Part shown: positions 10,892 through 64,000 of the stretch, piece by piece | Layout of the letters: each line of letters begins with the position of its first letter | Numbering within the stretch: position 1 is the stretch's first letter | Assembly: GCF_900114185.1 (NCBI RefSeq) | Contig: NZ_FOSE01000002.1 | Location: forward strand, 311,909-375,908 | DNA: 64,000 nucleotides | Origin: Cellulomonas sp. KH9 | GTDB lineage: Bacteria > Actinomycetota > Actinomycetes > Actinomycetales > Cellulomonadaceae | Direction: 5' to 3' | Program-made: the position numbers and the translations under genes | Notes under the pieces: model-generated | What the model was told of the DNA's origin: nothing | Seen by the model: the letters and a program-made list of their open reading frames with translations, nothing else | The model's database searches: none

Positions 10892-11332
10892 TCACCCGGC
10901 CGCCGCCTCCTCGGCGGCGAGCAGCGCCTGGACGGGGATCCGCCCGTTCGCGACGAGCTGGGCCCCTCCCCGGCGCAGGGCCGCGGCGAAGGGTGCCGCC
11001 CACCTGTTCTCGTAGACGAGGACGCCGCCCGCGCTGCCCGGCTCCAGGACGGCGCCGGCCTCCTCGATGTCGTCCTGGCCCAGGAGCCCGGAGCTCGCCC
11101 CCTCGAAGACCGACAGGTCGAGCTCGCCGTCGGCGTCCAGGTCGGCGATGAGGGCGCCGTTCACGGAGCCGTCGAGCTCCTTCTTGACGAAGAGCAGGTC
11201 GAGGACGCGGATGATCCCGCGGTCCACGAGGTCGACCAGCATCGGCAGACCCTCCCCGGTCATCCGGCTGCCGGGGAACTCGACCACCATGTAGTCGATC
11301 GGCCCCACGTCGTCCAGGTCCTCGATCGTCAC
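10892..11332 (-). CDS. DUF6325 family protein
   Basis: A 146-residue soluble protein. It shows GPIDYMVVEFPGSRMTGE at the N-terminus, RGIIRVLDLLFVKKELDG, and then EPGSAGGVLVYENRWAAPFA with an Ala-rich end. This is the pattern of DUF6325 proteins (related to DUF1269), often found with SHOCT genes in actinobacterial stress loci. I chose GTG 11332 because GAGGTG lies six bases before it. GTG 11341 would add three residues, with no Shine-Dalgarno sequence. The gene heads a minus-strand group with the two SHOCT genes. A half-site CGGGTGAG (11411-11418) lies upstream. No biochemical role is known. Confidence 0.78.
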   Translation of the reverse strand: MTIEDLDDVGPIDYMVVEFPGSRMTGEGLPMLVDLVDRGIIRVLDLLFVKKELDGSVNGALIADLDADGELDLSVFEGASSGLLGQDDIEEAGAVLEPGSAGGVLVYENRWAAPFAAALRRGGAQLVANGRIPVQALLAAEEAAAG

Positions 11333-11605
11333 AGCGCTCACCTCGTCGCACTCGTCCGGTAGTGGCGGGACCACGTTCGGCGAGCGCGTGCTCCGCGGGA
11401 TCGTCCGATACGGGTGAGACCTCCGCGTCGCGCGCTGCGACGCCGGCCGCCGGCCCACGCGGTGACGTGGCGGGGTGCCGCGGCGGGCCGCCCGTCCCGC
11501 GGCAGGGCCCCCGGTCTGGTCCGGGCTGCGCGAGGACACCGCGAGGTCGGTGCGCGCACGATCCAGGTGACCCCGCACCCGGGCAGCGACCGAGAGGAAC
11601 CGGCC

Positions 11606-12031
11606 ATGAGCGAGCAGACCAGATCACGCGAGGCAGCGCCCGCGACACCGAACGCCTTCGCGAGGGGCACCACGGTGCTCGCCGCGGTGCTCATGATCGT
11701 GGTGGGGAGCTTCAACGTCATCCAGGGCCTCGTCGCGGTCTTCCAGGACGACTTCTACGTCGCGACGCCGAACTACCTCCTGCAGCTGGACGTCGGCACG
11801 TGGGGGTGGGTCCATCTGCTGGTGGGCCTGCTGGTCGTGCTCGCGGGGTTCGCGGTGCTCTCCGGACGGGTCTGGGCGAGGGCCGTCGGCGTCGCGCTGG
11901 CGGTCGTCAGCGCGGTGGCCAACTTCGCCTTCATCCCGTACTACCCGTTCTGGAGCCTGACGATCATCGCCGTGGACATCGTCGTGATCTGGGCCCTGAC
12001 GGCGCACGGCCGTGACATCACCATGCCCTGA
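11606..12031 (+). CDS. DUF7144-like four-helix membrane protein
   Basis: A 141-residue protein starting at ATG 11606 after GAGAGGAACC. A polar tail of about 18 residues is followed by four hydrophobic helices. The first contains VGSFNVIQGLVAVFQDDFYV, and the second-third boundary is DVGTWGWVHLLVGLLVVLAG. The last helices are separated by NFAFIPYYPFWSL. This FNVIQG...TWGWVHL layout is typical of a widespread actinobacterial membrane family (DUF7144) of unknown function. It is monocistronic and ends at a strong bidirectional terminator. Confidence 0.78.
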   Translation: MSEQTRSREAAPATPNAFARGTTVLAAVLMIVVGSFNVIQGLVAVFQDDFYVATPNYLLQLDVGTWGWVHLLVGLLVVLAGFAVLSGRVWARAVGVALAVVSAVANFAFIPYYPFWSLTIIAVDIVVIWALTAHGRDITMP

Positions 12032-12668: not shown

Positions 12669-14102
12669 CTACGGCCGGGGGTCGAACCAGGTCGAGCCCT
12701 CGGGCAGCAGCCGGTCGGCCTGCGCGGGGCCCCAGGACCCCGGCGGGTAGGGGTGCACCGGCAGGCCCGCGGAGGTCACCGGGTCGACGACGCGCCACGC
12801 GGCCTCGACGGCGTCCTGACGTGCGAAGAGCCGGCGCCGGCCCTCGAGCGCGGCGCCGATGAGACGGTCGTAGGGGCGCACCACGGGGCCGGAGGTGTCC
12901 ACGGTCGAGAGCGTCTGCGTCGTGGGCTGCCAGCCGGTGCCGGGTTGCTTGCCCACCAGGCTCAGAGTGACCCCGGTCCCGGGCCAGATCCGGAACGCCC
13001 ACCGGTTGACGAGGTCGGCGGGCAGGCCGCCGACGACGTCGGCCGGCGGGCGCCGGAAGCGGAACGTGACCTCCGTGGCGGTCACGGGCAGGCACTTGCC
13101 GACGCGGATGAGGACGGGCACGCCGGCCCACCGCCACGAGTCGACCGCGAGCCGGACCGCGGCGTACGTCTCCGTCGTCGACCCGGTGGCGACGCCCTCG
13201 ACGTCGCGGTACCCCGCGTACTGCCCGAGCACCGCGTCGTCGGGCCCGACGGGACGCACCGCCTCGAGGAGGGTCGACCGCGCCGCGAGCCACGAGCGGG
13301 CGGGGTCGACGCCCGAGGGCGGGTCCGCGAGCACCGTGGCGAGCACCTCGAGCATGTGGTTCTGCAGCACGTCACGCACGGCGCCGGTGCGCTCGTAGAA
13401 GGCGGCGCGGCCGGTGACGCCGAACGTCTCGGCCATGGTGATCTGGACACTGTGGACGTGCTCGCGGTGCAGCAGGGGCTCGAGGACCGCGTTCGCGAAC
13501 CGCGCGAACAGCACGTTCTCGAGCGGTTCCAGGCCGAGCCAGTGGTCGACGCGGTAGACGTCGGTCTCGGGGAACACCGTGTGGATCGTCTCGTCGAGCA
13601 CCCGGGCGCTGCGCAGGTCGGTGCCGAACGGCTTCTCGACCATGACGCGCGACCCGGTGGCCCGGCCGACGGCGGCGATGCCCTGGACGATGCGCCCGAA
13701 CAGCGCCGGCGGCACCTCCAGGTAGTACAGGAAGCGGCGTCCTGCTCCCAGCACCTGCGAGACCGCCGCGTACGTCCGCGGGTCGTCCAGGTCGCCGTCG
13801 ACGTACCGCAGGAGGCCGAGCATCGTGCGGGCGGCGGAACCCCCGGGGTCGATCCCGGCAGCCTGCAGAGACGCGACGGCGTAGGCCCGGAACTCCTCGG
13901 TCCCCCACCCGCTGCGGGCCACCCCGACGACCGGGACCGTCAGGAGCCCGCGGTCGACCAGGGCGACCAGGGCGGGGAAGGTCTCGAGACGGGCGAGGTC
14001 CCCGGTGGCCCCGAAGACGACGAGCGCGTCGACCGGACCGGCCACGCTGCTCGGGTCGCCCGGTCGGTCGCCCGGTCGGTCGCCCGGTCGGTCCGGCGGC
14101 AT
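12669..14102 (-). CDS. Glucose-6-phosphate dehydrogenase paralogue with altered active site
   Basis: A 477-residue G6PD-fold protein. The NADP-binding GATGDLA (31-37), EKPFG (156-160), MAETFGVTGRAAFYE and QNHMLEVLA (catalytic-position His249) are kept. Two lysine motifs are not: the RKKL after the nucleotide loop in the canonical copy at 45081 is RLET here, and RIDHYLGKE is RVDHWLGLE (Lys to Leu191). Those lysines contact glucose-6-phosphate and support catalysis in studied G6PDs, so this copy may use another substrate or be catalytically weak. It starts at ATG 14102, overlapping the GH15 stop, with GGGAGAG upstream. It begins with a DRPG repeat. An alternative is ordinary but divergent G6PD. 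Confidence 0.8.
   Translation of the reverse strand: MPPDRPGDRPGDRPGDPSSVAGPVDALVVFGATGDLARLETFPALVALVDRGLLTVPVVGVARSGWGTEEFRAYAVASLQAAGIDPGGSAARTMLGLLRYVDGDLDDPRTYAAVSQVLGAGRRFLYYLEVPPALFGRIVQGIAAVGRATGSRVMVEKPFGTDLRSARVLDETIHTVFPETDVYRVDHWLGLEPLENVLFARFANAVLEPLLHREHVHSVQITMAETFGVTGRAAFYERTGAVRDVLQNHMLEVLATVLADPPSGVDPARSWLAARSTLLEAVRPVGPDDAVLGQYAGYRDVEGVATGSTTETYAAVRLAVDSWRWAGVPVLIRVGKCLPVTATEVTFRFRRPPADVVGGLPADLVNRWAFRIWPGTGVTLSLVGKQPGTGWQPTTQTLSTVDTSGPVVRPYDRLIGAALEGRRRLFARQDAVEAAWRVVDPVTSAGLPVHPYPPGSWGPAQADRLLPEGSTWFDPRP
14056..14091. repeat. Three perfect 12-bp tandem repeats in the G6PD-like gene
   Basis: Unit TCGCCCGGTCGG occurs three times head to tail. On the minus strand it encodes the repeated tetrapeptide DRPG near the N-terminus of the G6PD paralogue. 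Copy number is likely to vary between strains by slippage. Confidence 0.85.
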
Positions 14103-15958
14103 CAGAAGCTCTCCCAGGCGCGCCGGGGTGCCCTGCCGTCGAGGGTCGCGTCCAGGGTGATCGCCGCGTCGATGAGCGCGAGGTGGGTGAACGCCTGCGG
14201 GAAGTTGCCCAGCTGCTCGCCGGTGAGGCCGATCTCCTCGGAGTACAGGCCGACGTGGTTGGCGTACGTGAGCATCTTCTCGAAGACCATCCGCGCCTCG
14301 TCGGCCCGCCCGGCGCGCGCCAGCGCGTCGACGTAGTTGAACGTGCACAGCGAGAACGTGCCCTCGTCACCGGCGAGCCCGTCGGGCGACGCCGCGGGGT
14401 CGTAGCGGTAGACCAGGCTGTCGGTCACGAGCTCACCGTCCATCGCCGCGAGGGTCGAGGCCCACGCCGGGTCCCGCGGGTCGATGAACCCGACCGTCGC
14501 CATGCGCAGCAGCGAGGAGTCCAGGACCTCCGTGCGGTAGTGCTGCACGAAGGCGCCGCGCCGCGGGCTCCACCCGCGCTCCCAGACCTGGTCGTAGATC
14601 GCGTCCCGCCCCGCGGCCCACCGTCCGACGTCGGCGGGTCGGCCGTGGTCCGTCGCGAGGCGGATGCCGCGGTCCAGGGCGGCCCAGCTCATGACCCGTC
14701 CGTACGTGAAGTCCTGGCGCCCGCCGCGGGTCTCCCAGATCCCCTCGTCGGGCTGGTCCCAGTGGTCGCACAGCCAGTCGAGGATGCTGCGCAGCGCGAT
14801 CCACCCGCGGTGCCCGATGGGCAGCCCGTGCCGGTCGGCGAAGTAGACGCTGCACAGCGCCTCCCCGTAGATGTCCATCTGCAGCTGGTCCATCGCCGCG
14901 TTGCCGATCCGGACGGGGCTCGACCCGCGGTAGCCCTCCCAGTGGGTGAGGGACTCCTCGGTGAGGTCGGACGACCCGTCGACGCGGTACATGATGTTGA
15001 GCGGCCCGCCCGGGCCACCGGTCGTCTCCTCGATGCGGTCGCGCAGCCACGCACCGAAGTCGGCGGCCTCGTCCACGAACCCCATGCCGAGCAGCGAGTA
15101 GATCGAGAACGAGGCGTCGCGGACCCAGGTGTAGCGGTAGTCCCAGTTCCGCTCGCCGCCGACCTGCTCCGGCAGTCCCGCGGTCGGTGCGGCGACGAGT
15201 GCGCCCGACGGTGCGTATGTCATGAGCTTGAGCGCGATCGCGGAGCGCTGGAGCGCCTCGCGCCAGCGGCCGGTGTACGTCGACCGCGCGAGCCACTGCC
15301 GCCAGAAGCCGGCGGTCCCGTCGACCAGCTCACGCAGCTCCTGGGCGCGCATCGCGCGCGGGGGGCCGTCGCCCGAGGACTCCAGCACGAGGCCGGCACG
15401 CTCCCCCGCCGCGAGCTCGTACACCGCGCGGACGTCACCGTCCTCGTCGAGCTGGAGCCGCTCGCGCGTGCGGTCGTCGTCCGTCCAGGCCGTGTGCAGC
15501 GTGAGAGTCAGGTCCGCGCTCTCGAAGACCGCACCGTGCTCCGTCACGTGGGTGGTGTGGGGCTGCCGCCCGTAGTCGAACCGCGGTGCGACGTGCGCCT
15601 CGAAGCGCACGCGCCCGCGCACGCAGCGCATGACGCGGACGAGCCGGTGCCGGTCGGTGGCGGTGCGGCCCGTGGGCGGCATGAAGTCGACGACCTCGCC
15701 GACGCCGGCCTGGGTGAGGAAGCGGGTGATGAGGACGGCGGTGTCCGGCAGGTAGAGCTGGGTGACGACGTGGTCGTCGCCCGGGGGTCGGACGCGGAAG
15801 TGGCCGCCGCGCTCGGCGTCGAGGAGGGCGCCGAAGATGCTGGGCGAGTCGAAACGGGGGCAGCAGTACCAGTCGACCGAGCCGTCGGTGGAGACCAGCG
15901 CGGCCGTCTGCAGGTCCCCGATCAGCCCGTGGTCCGCGATCTGCGGGTACGTCGCCAT
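14102..15958 (-). CDS. Glycoside hydrolase family 15 protein (trehalase/glucoamylase-like)
   Basis: A 618-residue enzyme starting at ATG 15958, with GAGGAGG upstream. The N-terminal beta domain begins IADHGLIGDLQTAALVSTDG and SVDWYCCPRFDSPSIFG. The (alpha/alpha)6 barrel begins near residue 240 and carries [18 protein letters not shown], the GH15 signature with the general-acid region, then HWEGYRGSSPVRIGNAA and later GDEGTFSLCTFNYVDALA. Actinobacterial members include mycobacterial-type trehalases as well as glucoamylases, so the substrate is uncertain. No signal peptide is seen, so it is cytoplasmic. Stop-start overlap with the G6PD-like gene implies coupled translation and a shared pathway from a glucoside to an oxidised sugar. 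Confidence 0.86.
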   Translation of the reverse strand: MATYPQIADHGLIGDLQTAALVSTDGSVDWYCCPRFDSPSIFGALLDAERGGHFRVRPPGDDHVVTQLYLPDTAVLITRFLTQAGVGEVVDFMPPTGRTATDRHRLVRVMRCVRGRVRFEAHVAPRFDYGRQPHTTHVTEHGAVFESADLTLTLHTAWTDDDRTRERLQLDEDGDVRAVYELAAGERAGLVLESSGDGPPRAMRAQELRELVDGTAGFWRQWLARSTYTGRWREALQRSAIALKLMTYAPSGALVAAPTAGLPEQVGGERNWDYRYTWVRDASFSIYSLLGMGFVDEAADFGAWLRDRIEETTGGPGGPLNIMYRVDGSSDLTEESLTHWEGYRGSSPVRIGNAAMDQLQMDIYGEALCSVYFADRHGLPIGHRGWIALRSILDWLCDHWDQPDEGIWETRGGRQDFTYGRVMSWAALDRGIRLATDHGRPADVGRWAAGRDAIYDQVWERGWSPRRGAFVQHYRTEVLDSSLLRMATVGFIDPRDPAWASTLAAMDGELVTDSLVYRYDPAASPDGLAGDEGTFSLCTFNYVDALARAGRADEARMVFEKMLTYANHVGLYSEEIGLTGEQLGNFPQAFTHLALIDAAITLDATLDGRAPRRAWESF

Positions 15959-16119
15959 GGTGCGCCTCCTCGCCTGCCGGCGCGGTCCCGCACCGTAGGT
16001 GGTCCACCCTCCTGGTGGCCTCGGGCGCCCGCGTCCTCCACCGTGGGTGAGGTGGTCCGGTCGCCACCGGGAGCACAGTCGTGCGTCGGGCAGGTGCCGA
16101 CCGGACGCGGGGAGCGACG

Positions 16120-16140
16120 ATGCACTGGACGCGGCCATGA
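16120..16140 (+). CDS. Possible six-codon leader ORF overlapping the channel start
   Basis: ATG at 16120 follows GGGGAG with good spacing and encodes M-H-W-T-R-P before TGA at 16138-16140. That stop overlaps the ATG of the channel gene (16137) in an ATGA. The best ribosome binding site in the region fits this short frame, not the channel start, so it may couple translation. It may equally be chance. Confidence 0.3.
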   Translation: MHWTRP

Positions 16141-16700
16141 CGCCGCACGCGGCGACCCCGGAGCCCCACGGTCGGCCGCGCGAGGCCCTGCAGTTCGTGT
16201 GGCGCACGAGCCTGACGGTGGTGCTCCTGACCGTCTGCTACTACGTGCTCCCGCCCGCGGGGCCGTTCCACGACCCCCTCACGGGCGCCCGCTGGCTCGG
16301 TTCGGTCGTCGCGCTGTGCGGGTTCGTCCTGCTCGTGCGCCGCAGCGTGCGCACGGCGCGCAGGGACCCGTCGTTCGTCGCACGGGGCGAGGCGGTCCTG
16401 ACCGTGCTGTACGTCCTGGTCCTGTTCTTCGCCGTCACCTACAGCACCATGGCGACGCACGTGCCCGGGCAGTTCGACGGCATCGAGGACTCCACGGACG
16501 CGCTCTACTTCACCGTGACGGTCGTGTCGACGGTCGGCTTCGGGGACATCACGCCCGTGGGCACGGCCGCGCGCCTCGTGGTCACGACCCACATGCTGGT
16601 CAACCTCATCTACGTCGGCACCGCGCTGCGGGTGCTCACCGCGCGCGGCACGGGCCGCGGGCCGGAGGACGTGACCGCACCGGCGCGTCCGGCGCCGTGA
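16137..16700 (+). CDS. Two-TM potassium channel
   Basis: A 187-residue protein with hydrophobic segments at about 25-38, 53-68 and 86-103, a pore helix with DALYFTVTVVSTVGFGD and a last helix (ARLVVTTHMLVNLIYVGTAL). TVGFGD (132-137) is the K+ selectivity filter of the Ion_trans_2 family. No RCK or cyclic nucleotide domain follows. It probably mediates passive K+ flux across the plasma membrane. ATG 16137 is used; the frame is open upstream to a GTG at 15999, which cannot be excluded. A short hairpin lies just after the stop. Confidence 0.85.
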   Translation: MTPHAATPEPHGRPREALQFVWRTSLTVVLLTVCYYVLPPAGPFHDPLTGARWLGSVVALCGFVLLVRRSVRTARRDPSFVARGEAVLTVLYVLVLFFAVTYSTMATHVPGQFDGIEDSTDALYFTVTVVSTVGFGDITPVGTAARLVVTTHMLVNLIYVGTALRVLTARGTGRGPEDVTAPARPAP

Positions 16701-45084: not shown

Positions 45085-46622
45085 GCCCCGCGAAGGTCGG
45101 ACCCGACCAGAACCCGCTGCGCGACGCGCGGGACCGACGGCTGCCGCGCATCGCCGGGCCCAGCGGCCTGGTGATCTTCGGCGTCACCGGTGACCTCGCC
45201 CGCAAGAAGCTCATGCCCGCGGTGTACGACCTGACCAACCGCGGGCTGCTGCCGCCCGGGTTCGCCCTGACGGGCTTCGCCCGCCGGGACTGGGAGACGC
45301 AGGACTTCGAGCAGGTCGTGCGCGACTCCGTCAAGGAGTACGCGCGCACCCCGTTCCGTGAGGCCACGTGGCGCCAGCTGTCCGAGGGCATCCGGTTCGT
45401 CCAGGGCACGTTCGACGACGACGACGCCTTCGACCGGCTGAGCAAGACGGTCGAGGAGCTCGACGTGACGCGCGGCACCGGCGGCAACCACGCGTTCTAC
45501 CTCTCGGTGCCGCCGAGCTCGTTCCCCGTCGTGTGCCAGCAGCTCGCCCGCTCGGGGCTCTCGCAGCCGAAGGAGGGGACCTGGCGGCGCGTCGTCATCG
45601 AGAAGCCGTTCGGTCACGACCTCGAGTCGGCCCGGGAGCTCAACGACATCGTGTCCCAGGTGTTCCACCCGGACGACATCTTCCGGATCGACCACTACCT
45701 GGGCAAGGAGACGGTCCAGAACCTGCTGGCGCTGCGGTTCGCCAACCAGCTGTTCGAGCCGATCTGGAACGGCAACTACGTCGACCACGTGCAGATCACG
45801 ATGGCCGAGGACATCGGCATCGGCGGCCGTGCCGGGTACTACGACGGCATCGGCGCCGCCCGCGACGTCATCCAGAACCACCTGCTGCAGCTGCTCGCGC
45901 TGACCGCGATGGAGGAGCCGGTCTCCTTCGACGCCGCCGCGCTGCGGGCCGAGAAGACCAAGGTGCTCTCGGCGCTGCGACTGCCGCGCGACCTGGGCAA
46001 GCACACGGCGCGCGGTCAGTACACCGCCGGCTGGCAGGGCGGCGAGAAGGTCGTGGGCTACGCGCAGGAGGAGGGCTTCAACCCCGACTCCACGACCGAG
46101 ACGTACGCGGCGATCCGCGTCGACATCGACACGCGCCGCTGGGCCGGGGTGCCGTTCTACCTGCGGACGGGCAAGCGGCTCGGACGACGCGTCACCGAGA
46201 TCGCCGTCGTGTTCAAGCGTGCCCCGCACCTGCCGTTCGAGGCGACCGCCGCCTCCGAGCTCGGCAAGAACGCGCTGGTCATCCGCGTGCAGCCCGACGA
46301 GGGCGTCACGCTGCGGTTCGGCGCCAAGGTGCCGGGCACCGCGATGGAGGTCCGCGACGTCACCATGGACTTCGGCTACGGCCACGCCTTCACCGAGTCC
46401 TCCCCCGAGGCCTACGAGCGCCTCATCCTCGACGTGCTGCTCGGCGACCCGCCGCTCTTCCCGCAGCACGAGGAGGTCGAGCTGTCCTGGAAGATCCTCG
46501 ACCCGGTGACCGAGTACTGGGCGTCCCACGGCAAGCCCGACGAGTACCGGGCGGGCACATGGGGTCCCGCCTCGGCCGACGAGATGATGGCCCGCGACGG
46601 GCGTGCCTGGAGGCTCCCGTGA
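45081..46622 (+). CDS. zwf: Glucose-6-phosphate 1-dehydrogenase
   Basis: A 513-residue enzyme making 6-phosphogluconolactone and NADPH. The canonical motifs are complete: [13 protein letters not shown] (34-46), [24 protein letters not shown] (catalytic Lys/His region), [18 protein letters not shown] and YLRTGKRL. This is the functional copy, in contrast to the paralogue at 12669. GTG 45081 overlaps the tal stop, and its own stop overlaps the opcA GTG. OpcA downstream is its known partner in actinobacteria. Confidence 0.97.
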
Positions 46623-62185: not shown

Positions 62186-64000
62186 ATGCTGAGGGCGATG
62201 GTCGCGCCGAGCACACCGACGGGCGAGGACGGCCCGCCGGACGACCCCCCGGCGGGCGACCTCCTGCTGGACGGCCAGGTCCCCGTCGAGGAGTACGCCG
62301 TGCTGGGCGACGGCCACTCCGCCGCCCTGGTGTCGCGGCACGGGTCGGTCGACTGGCTGTGCCTGCCGCGGTTCGACTCGGACGCCTGCTTCGCCGCGCT
62401 CCTGGGCACGCCCGAGCACGGCCGATGGCTCCTGACGGTCCGGGACGCCGCCGCCGTGACCCGGCGGTACCGGGGCGACTCGTTCGTCCTCGAGACGACC
62501 TACCGCACCGCGGGGGGCACGGCCGTCGCCACCGACGCCATGCCGTCGGGCGACGGACGCGCGGACCTGGTGCGCCGGCTGACCTGCACGGCCGGGGAGG
62601 TCGAGGTCGAGCACGAGTGGGTGGTGCGCTTCGGGTACGGCGCCGTGCAGCCGTGGGTGCGCCACGAGGACGACGCCGACGGCTGCGACACGATCCGCGC
62701 GGTGGCGGGCCCCGACTCGCTGGTGCTGCGCGGCGACCGCCTCCCCCGCGCCGACGGACGCCGCCACCGCGACCGGTTCACGCTGCACGCGGGGCAGAGC
62801 GTCGAGCTGTCGCTCACGTGGGTCCACTCGTGGCAGCCGGTGCCGCCGCGCCTGCCGGTGAGCGGCCGGGTCGACACGACGGCGGTCCGCTGGGGCCTGT
62901 GGGCGCGCGACTGCGGGTACGACGGCCCGTACCGGGAGGCGGTCGTCCGCTCGCTGCTCGTGCTGCGCCTGCTGACCGACGCCACCACCGGGGGCATCGT
63001 CGCGGCGCCGACGACGTCGCTGCCCGAGACCCCGGGCGGCGAGCGCAACTGGGACTACCGGTACTGCTGGCTGCGGGACGCCGCGTTCACGCTCGAGGCG
63101 CTCCTGGAGCAGGGGTTCCGCGACGAGGCGACCCAGTGGCGGGACTGGCTGGCCCGGGCCGTGGCGGGCGACCCGCGGGACCTGCAGATCATGTACCGGC
63201 TGGACGGCGGGCGCCGCCTGCCGGAGACGCACCTCGGCCACCTGCCGGGGTACGCGGGCTCGCGCCCGGTGCGCCGGGGCAACGGCGCGGTGCGGCAGGT
63301 GCAGCACGACGTGCTCGGCGTGGTCATGTCGGCGCTGGCGATGGCCCGGGACGCGGGTCTCGCCGAGACGTCCGACACGTGGTCGCTGCAGCGTCGGCTC
63401 GTCGACGACCTGGCGCGCCACTGGCGGGAGCCGGACCGCGGCATCTGGGAGGTGCGCGGCGAGCCCCGGCACTTCACGCACTCGAAGGTGATGACGTGGG
63501 TCGCGCTCGACCGCGCGGTGCAGGCCGTCGAGCAGCACGGCCTGCCCGGCCCCGTCGAGCGCTGGCGCCGCACCCGCGACGAGGTCCGCACCGACGTCCT
63601 CGCCCACGGGTGGTCCGACGCGCGCGGCAGCTTCGTGCAGCACTACGGGGCGGAGCACGCCGACGCCTCGCTGCTGCAGCTGGTCCTGGTGGGGTTCGTG
63701 CCCGCGGACGGACCGCACGCGCGCGGGACGGTCGCCGCGGTCCGCGAGGAGCTGGAGGTCGGGCCGGGGCTGCTGCGCCGGTACCGCACGGAGCGCACGG
63801 ACGACGGGCTGCACGGCGACGAGGCCGCGTTCCTCGCGTGCTCCTTCTGGCTCGCCGACGCCCTGGCCCGGGGGAACGACGTCGACGGCGCCCGCCGGGT
63901 GCTCGACGCGGTGGTGCCGCTGGCCAACGACGTGGGCCTGCTCGCCGAGCAGTACGACCCCGTCGGCCGGCACATGCGGGGCAACGTGCCGCAGGCGCTC
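62186..64000 (+). CDS. Glycoside hydrolase family 15 protein (3' end beyond window)
   Basis: The first ~605 residues of a GH15 enzyme, open to the right edge. The start may be ATG 62186 or ATG 62198 (GAGGG precedes the second). The beta domain has [20 protein letters not shown] and [18 protein letters not shown]. The barrel has [57 protein letters not shown] and [19 protein letters not shown], matching the first GH15 gene at 14102 region by region. No signal peptide is seen. It is divergent from uvrA across 121 bases. Substrate is probably an alpha-glucoside such as trehalose or a maltodextrin. Confidence 0.86.

Follow-up and report, generated by a model that had tools for sequence, protein, structure and literature searches.

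In a 64,000-nucleotide stretch of the genome of Cellulomonas sp. KH9 (contig NZ_FOSE01000002.1, positions 311,909 to 375,908; this whole stretch is called the window here), a gene for a protein resembling glucose-6-phosphate dehydrogenase (G6PD) starts within the stop codon of a gene for a glycoside hydrolase family 15 (GH15) enzyme. We favor, with moderate confidence, the reading that the G6PD-like protein belongs to the G6PD superfamily and remains catalytically competent, but has a largely dismantled phosphate pocket and would oxidize C1 of a free aldose, most simply β-D-glucose, with NAD(P)+. The protein belongs to a group of homologues, labeled LETF, in which the lysine of the RIDHYLGKE phosphate motif (K182) is found in 0 of 58 distinct sequences, whereas 90 of 90 other homologues keep it. 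The gene pair and the sites concerned are as follows.

12669..14102, minus strand: G6PD-like protein (LETF-type), 477 aa; low-confidence N-terminal residues 1-20, then both G6PD domains
14102..15958, minus strand: GH15 enzyme (TREH_N + Glyco_hydro_15), 618 aa; motifs HWEGY and DEGTF present
14100..14104, minus strand: TGATG, GH15 stop and G6PD-like start, 1-base overlap
13983..13988, minus strand: L39-E40, replacing K-K of RKKL; E in 58 of 58 LETF sequences
13623..13637, minus strand: EKPFG, active-site lysine K157 kept
13527..13553, minus strand: RVDHWLGLE, with Asp186 and His187 kept, Trp188 for Tyr and Leu191 for Lys
13356..13364, minus strand: QNH, general-base His249 kept
13080..13097, minus strand: K336 (invariant among all sequences counted) to T341 (canonical zwf has Arg)

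Phosphate-site residues of the G6PD-like protein

The motifs of the G6PD-like protein are GATGDLARLETFP, VEKPFG, RVDHWLGLE and LQNHM. The coenzyme loop GxxGDLA (here GATGDLA) and EKPxG are both present, as is the catalytic Asp-His dyad (D186 and H249), which is found in 58 of 58 members of the LETF clade. Where RKKL has become RLET, the first Arg is retained and K20 and K21 are lost; these labels follow Leuconostoc numbering, and we take E40 to stand at Lys21 of Leuconostoc and Lys47 of human G6PD. The phosphate motif RIDHYLGKE (His, Tyr, Lys) reads RVDHWLGLE, retaining the His without the Tyr and the Lys. Further changes relative to the canonical zwf of the window are Tyr to Trp in DHYLG and Arg to Thr in GRRVTEI (PVTATEV), with Thr341 at what we take to be the Lys343/Arg365 position. 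The original prediction, that the NADP site and the QNH histidine are kept and that the RKKL and RIDHYLGKE lysines are lost here and intact in the canonical zwf (~45.15-46.62 kb), was borne out by these motifs. In human G6PD, His201, Tyr202 and Lys205 are reported to take part in binding the substrate phosphate, and Asp200 and His263 to form the catalytic dyad (PMC11448927). The counterparts in the window protein are His187, Trp188, Leu191, Asp186 and His249, respectively.

To read the residue states, 199 homologues with a length of at least 400 aa and no internal stops were aligned with MAFFT after six loci had been dropped; counting each distinct sequence once gave 168 in total (58 LETF, 20 of a second group called class B, and 90 others); L and G followed by a number are locus and genome labels in this sample. 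The LETF label was assigned partly from the ETFP motif and K182, and the whole-protein tree still gives the 31 sampled members as one clade. Among the LETF sequences, the K21 site was Glu and the Y179 site Trp in all 58, and the K182 site was Leu (49) or Phe (9); the H178 site (human His201) was His in 50 and Asp in 8, and the K343 site Thr in 56 and Ser in 2. In the 90 others, by comparison, K182 and H178 were invariant, K21 was Lys in 54, Met in 25, Gln in 9 and Ser or Leu in one each, and K343 was Thr in 40, Arg in 31, Ser in 10, Lys in 4 and something else in five. K148, D177, E217, D235, H240 and K338 were retained throughout LETF, and no LETF Lys or Arg occupies the K20, K21, K182 or K343 column of the alignment. 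In class B, K21 was lost in all 20 sequences (Leu 11, Tyr 8, Phe 1), and K182 was Met in 8, Lys in 4, Arg in 4, Glu in 2 and Asn and Val in one each, so that it was not Lys in 16 of 20 and neither Lys nor Arg in 12 of 20.

As read from this alignment, the change at K182 is the sharp LETF trait. Loss of K21 was also considered as a diagnostic and rejected, as 36 of the 90 K182-keeping homologues are without Lys there too. The positions of W211 (Trp in 90 of 90 others) and M259 are altered in LETF. Candidates for compensating basic residues are positions 137, 147, 409 and 423, and also 454 (Pro in the window protein), where many LETF sequences but few other homologues have Arg or Lys; position 409 presumably corresponds to Asp421 of human G6PD, which belongs to the structural NADP site. 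One LETF sub-branch (L023, L037, L040, L041, L043, L050, L053 and L057) reads VDDWLAFD, the phosphate His having also changed to Asp, and by its sequence is the strongest departure from G6PD within the clade. Separately, a group of G6PDs (L085, L087, L187, L195 and L200) has GDLARVMTF or GDLAKVMTF and IDH(Y/F)LGKM-type motifs with K182 kept; QNH reads VNH in L085, L087 and L200, and L085, from the genus of the window, adjoins a GMC gene while L087, L187 and L195 adjoin GH15.

Pfam assigned the G6PD-like protein to its superfamily (PF00479, 130.9 bits; PF02781, 239.5 bits; gathering cut-offs 22.1 and 27) and detected no domain besides these two at E ≤ 0.001. An AlphaFold model built on a 58-row alignment had a predicted local distance difference test (pLDDT) score of 90.2 and a predicted G6PD fold, with Foldseek template modeling (TM) scores of 0.87-0.93 to chains of 4lgv and a VIA-align Z of 47.6; the phosphate pocket was assessed from aligned residues and not from measured distances. 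The curated NCBIfam models scored the protein below their cut-offs (385.9 against 400.6 for TIGR00871; 372 against 428 for PRK12853). The LETF relatives L003 (419.8) and L043 (405.7) both passed the TIGR00871 zwf cut-off and both failed PRK12853.

Descent and distribution of LETF genes

A contig scan for homologues, of which the best 80 of 233 loci were kept, gave 56 close loci (59-67% identity, Actinomycetota) with LETFP-/IETFP-type and VDHWLGL-/VDDWLAF-type motifs where covered, and 24 more distant loci (44-52% identity) with IDHYLGKE or IDHFLGKE. In a quick tree of 105 rows, with support by the Shimodaira-Hasegawa-like approximate likelihood ratio test (SH-aLRT) only, LETF formed one clade of 31 rows (SH-aLRT 100, stem 0.81 changes per column). 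These rows span eight named families of Actinomycetota and are nested among K182-keeping homologues, several of which adjoin gnd, tal or pgi. Class B (L134-L136 and L148-L165) formed a separate clade of 18 rows (SH-aLRT 100, stem 0.87), and forcing the two into one clade fitted worse (approximately unbiased (AU) test with 44 of the 105 rows, p = 0.028). Two separate origins of LETF and class B, as judged from the sequences, are likely, not certain.

The LETF gene is accessory and patchy. Among 58 genomes (that of KH9, 35 congeners and 22 from the same order), it was found in KH9 only, the next best match being 48% identical, and of 296 genomes sampled evenly across the class (completeness of at least 90%; best five candidates per genome scored) four carried it, KH9 included, at 61-100% identity. 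The gene may have been acquired in the genus of the window. All 23 LETF genomes searched hold at least one other G6PD homologue at no more than 46% identity, which in G068 and G075 takes the form of partial matches only. Two LETF genes occur in G066 (L014, L055), G080 (L057, L126) and G075 (L036, L127), the second one of G075 being split over two frames.

Gene neighborhoods

In the window, the TGA of the GH15 gene (14104-14102) and the ATG of the G6PD-like gene (14102-14100) share one base, in agreement with the overlap first reported. Pfam confirmed GH15 membership of the partner (PF00723, 237.2 bits, gathering cut-off 22; PF19291, 69.7 bits), and we take its HWEGY and DEGTF motifs to hold the catalytic Glu residues. 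The best named model is the archaeal trehalase TreH1 (NF041084), whose match lies far under its cut-off (369 bits against 820) and thus does not fix the GH15 substrate. Searching the PDB with the GH15 protein returned short-segment matches to designed repeat proteins only, which were discarded as an artefact.

Neighbors were counted by tblastn (at least 50 bits) at one locus per distinct protein, each with flanks of at least 1.4 kb in both directions, leaving out duplicates and L132-L147, which had been chosen for their neighbors. Within 1.45 kb, the 49 LETF loci had GMC in 18, cydA in 11, GH15 in 10 and gluconokinase in 7, and gnd, tal and pgi in none. The 72 other loci had tal in 19, gnd in 18, pgi in 6, GH15 in 5, GMC in 1 and gluconokinase in none, and the 17 class B loci had GH15 in 7, gluconokinase in 2 and none of gnd, tal or pgi. 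Within 5.9 kb, GH15, cydA and cydB were each found at 23 and GMC at 22 of 38 LETF loci, again without gnd, tal or pgi, and gnd (6), tal (3) and pgi (2) but no GH15 were found at 13 others. The 23 LETF genomes contain 101 GH15 matches in ~185 Mb, which gives ~0.007 per locus by chance against 15 of 23 loci observed, an estimate that is not a p-value because the LETF loci are related to each other. The GH15 partners are 38 to 81% identical to the window GH15 over the best segment, so different GH15 types are involved.

GH15 lies directly upstream on the same strand at 3 of the 49 LETF loci outside the window (L022 from Streptomyces, L043 from Kutzneria, and L180), GMC does so at 17 of 49, and gluconokinase is divergent and within 400 bases at 7 of 49. 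The link to GH15 is looser than had originally been supposed, with GH15 in this upstream position at those 3 loci and within 5.9 kb at 23 of 38, and GH15 also lies beside K182-keeping homologues (L132 and L133, and the 5 of 72). For this last reason, GH15 adjacency was rejected as proof of a free-sugar substrate.

Gluconokinase assignments passed the TIGR01313 cut-off of 113.75 in all nine loci checked, six of them LETF, at 158-169 bits: L039, L052 and L054 scored 158-164, and the class B loci L148, L150 and L134 and the LETF loci L003, L005 and L008, where the gene is upstream of GMC, scored 158-169. Gluconokinase thus stands beside members of two lineages, which points to gluconate as an intermediate. 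KH9 has a gluconokinase elsewhere (contig C2, 189.9 bits). Among solved structures, the GMC protein is matched best by glucose dehydrogenase 6a2u (134 bits) and by fructose dehydrogenase (112-119 bits). At the class B locus L134, the order is gluconokinase, zinc-type dehydrogenase, GH15 and G6PD-like gene, the last two overlapping by 4 bases (ATGA), and at L208 it is dehydrogenase, GH15, G6PD-like gene and gluconokinase.

Other genes recur around LETF. Together with the LETF gene and GMC, cydA and cydB, often with cydDC, were found at L003, L004, L005, L006, L008, L010, L014, L015, L018 and L025, and further at L028, L032, L037, L044, L047, L048, L053, L057 and L066; such a set may form an island for sugar oxidation and low-oxygen respiration. 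The small ion-channel gene of the window has counterparts near LETF genes at L038, L039, L042, L045, L051, L052 and L054; outside the window it stands beside gluconokinase. Relatives of the DUF7144 (window 11600-12031) and DUF6325 (window 10892-11578) genes recur near LETF at L012, L039, L045 and L054, and at L029, respectively. The canonical zwf of the window lies after open reading frames judged by eye to be transketolase- and transaldolase-like, and another GH15 gene on the plus strand, at ~62924-64000, runs past the window end (G000:C4:374832-375935). The remaining features are listed here.

15999..16700, plus strand: ion-channel protein, oriented divergently from GH15; Ion_trans_2 domain (Pfam, 45.1 bits) at 16140-16700
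45153..46622, plus strand: canonical zwf, for comparison only (start not refined)

Proposed reaction, alternatives and related systems

G6PDs act on the β anomer of their substrate. GH15 hydrolases are termed anomer-inverting in the title of a paper (PMC12446779), so the GH15 enzyme would release β-D-glucose, its source being trehalose or an alpha-glucan. This glucose would be oxidized to the lactone with NAD(P)+ by the G6PD-like enzyme, acting as a free-glucose dehydrogenase (EC 1.1.1.47). Gluconokinase would then turn gluconate into 6-phosphogluconate, which feeds into the pentose phosphate pathway with no need for hexokinase. The earlier suggestion of an unphosphorylated or different sugar is strengthened by the clade-fixed loss of K182 and K21, by the disappearance of gnd, tal and pgi from the surroundings and by the gluconokinase and GMC neighbors; the substrate, the coenzyme, lactone hydrolysis and the hand-over from GH15 are what we infer.

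Several points weigh against oxidation of a free aldose. The main caveat is that human Lys205 is, by the title of a report, said to be essential for catalysis and not for binding. Phosphate affinity could remain, since 50 of 58 LETF sequences retain the His201 equivalent and all 58 the K338 site. The nearest K182-keeping relatives often carry Thr at K343, and some of them have Gln at K21, which leaves the changes at K182 and K20 and the Glu at K21 as the ones peculiar to LETF. GH15 or GMC also adjoins the K182-keeping L085, L087, L132, L133, L183, L187, L188 and L195; L132 and L133 have the order GH15-gnd-G6PD with VDHFLGKE, keeping K182 and not K21, and the GH15-adjacent L183 and L188 keep both. 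Gluconokinase is adjacent in a minority, and the four of those seven loci that are in the tree form one sub-branch. The GMC enzyme at many LETF loci could itself make gluconate, no GMC match was found in the KH9 genome (by a search without a positive control), and the class B argument is weakened because the zinc-type dehydrogenase could be the glucose dehydrogenase there. Finally, a tree-aware pair test of motif against neighbor gave three usable pairs, on starred branches, and shows nothing.

Alternatively, the protein could still be a G6PD whose phosphate site is altered, weakened or constructed differently; glucose from GH15 would first be phosphorylated by glucokinase, and the pair would feed the ordinary pentose phosphate pathway. 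The retained fold, catalytic residues and phosphate His, the passing of TIGR00871 by both other LETF members scored, and the presence of GH15 next to homologues that keep K182 (separated from them by gnd in L132 and L133) are in keeping with this. We nevertheless consider it unlikely: as all 90 others keep K182, an enzyme acting on glucose 6-phosphate would be expected to keep it, and LETF never does and has Glu at K21 throughout. Furthermore, none of the 49 LETF loci adjoins gnd, tal or pgi, the kinase recognized nearby is a gluconokinase (glucokinase was not searched for), and every LETF genome searched holds another G6PD homologue, in two only as fragments.

The enzyme might instead oxidize another unphosphorylated substrate, such as the product of a GMC sugar dehydrogenase, a non-glucose aldose or a short oligosaccharide. 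GMC is directly upstream more often than GH15 (17 against 3 of 49), its relatives are glucose and fructose dehydrogenases, and the changed W211 and M259 positions may reshape the protein. Pairing with GH15 would yield free glucose, though, and in the absence of a GMC match from the KH9 genome the window can do without such a partner, its minimal unit being GH15 plus the G6PD-like gene; genome G227 (L212) has the same unit, with the GH15 stop 15 bases before the G6PD-like start. We regard such a substrate as quite unlikely. The non-catalytic partner first proposed, or a regulatory one, for example of GH15 or of canonical Zwf, would fit the gene overlap and the reported need of human Lys205 for catalysis, but is very unlikely and now disfavored, as the equivalents of K148, D177, E217, D235 and H240 are kept in 58 of 58 LETF sequences, with tree rows from eight families, which is not expected of a pseudo-enzyme.

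Beyond oxidation of a free aldose by the window protein, we tentatively put forward as a possibility that on at least two occasions (LETF and class B) enzymes of the G6PD fold lost their phosphate site and turned into free-sugar dehydrogenases, recruited into gene sets with GH15, gluconokinase, GMC and cytochrome bd, which would amount to a way into the pentose phosphate pathway that needs no hexokinase and is concealed among zwf-scoring genes. By title and start of abstract, the open-licence literature yielded neither a free-glucose enzyme of the G6PD family nor a GH15-G6PD pairing. If the proposal is true, zwf-like genes in Streptomyces, Kitasatospora, Pseudonocardia, Kribbella, Frankia and relatives do not use glucose 6-phosphate, and metabolic models would be misled; GH15-released glucose would have a route to 6-phosphogluconate that bypasses hexokinase, and nature would have tested, perhaps more than once, how an enzyme can shed phosphate recognition with its chemistry kept.

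Among known systems, G6PD itself (Zwf, EC 1.1.1.49; PF00479 + PF02781; TIGR00871, PRK12853) has in common with the window protein both domains, GATGDLA, EKPFG, the Asp-His dyad and QNH. The best solved match of the model is Mycobacterium avium G6PD (4lgv, at the Z of 47.6 given above, with a root-mean-square deviation of 2.1 over 443 residues), and Leuconostoc G6PD with substrate (1e77) has a Z of 44.8. Relative to G6PD, the window protein has lost the K182 and K21 equivalents, has Trp for Tyr179 and has Thr at the Lys343/Arg365 site. Hexose-6-phosphate dehydrogenase (H6PD), or glucose dehydrogenase (PDB 8em2), is also of the G6PD superfamily (Z 33.5 to the model); it is reported to oxidize free glucose as a side activity, with glucose 6-phosphate as the main substrate (PMC4045858), and so offers a precedent for the proposed reaction. 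H6PD prefers glucose 6-phosphate and has a 6-phosphogluconolactonase domain, whereas the Pfam search found no such fused domain in the window protein. The window GH15 shares the TREH_N and Glyco_hydro_15 domains with trehalase- and glucoamylase-like hydrolases of its family. Class B proteins resemble LETF in the loss at K21 and K182 and in partial adjacency to GH15 or gluconokinase; unlike LETF, they form a separate clade and have Lys or Arg at K182 in 8 of 20, and L134, the one member scored, passes PRK12853 (527.8 against a cut-off of 428).

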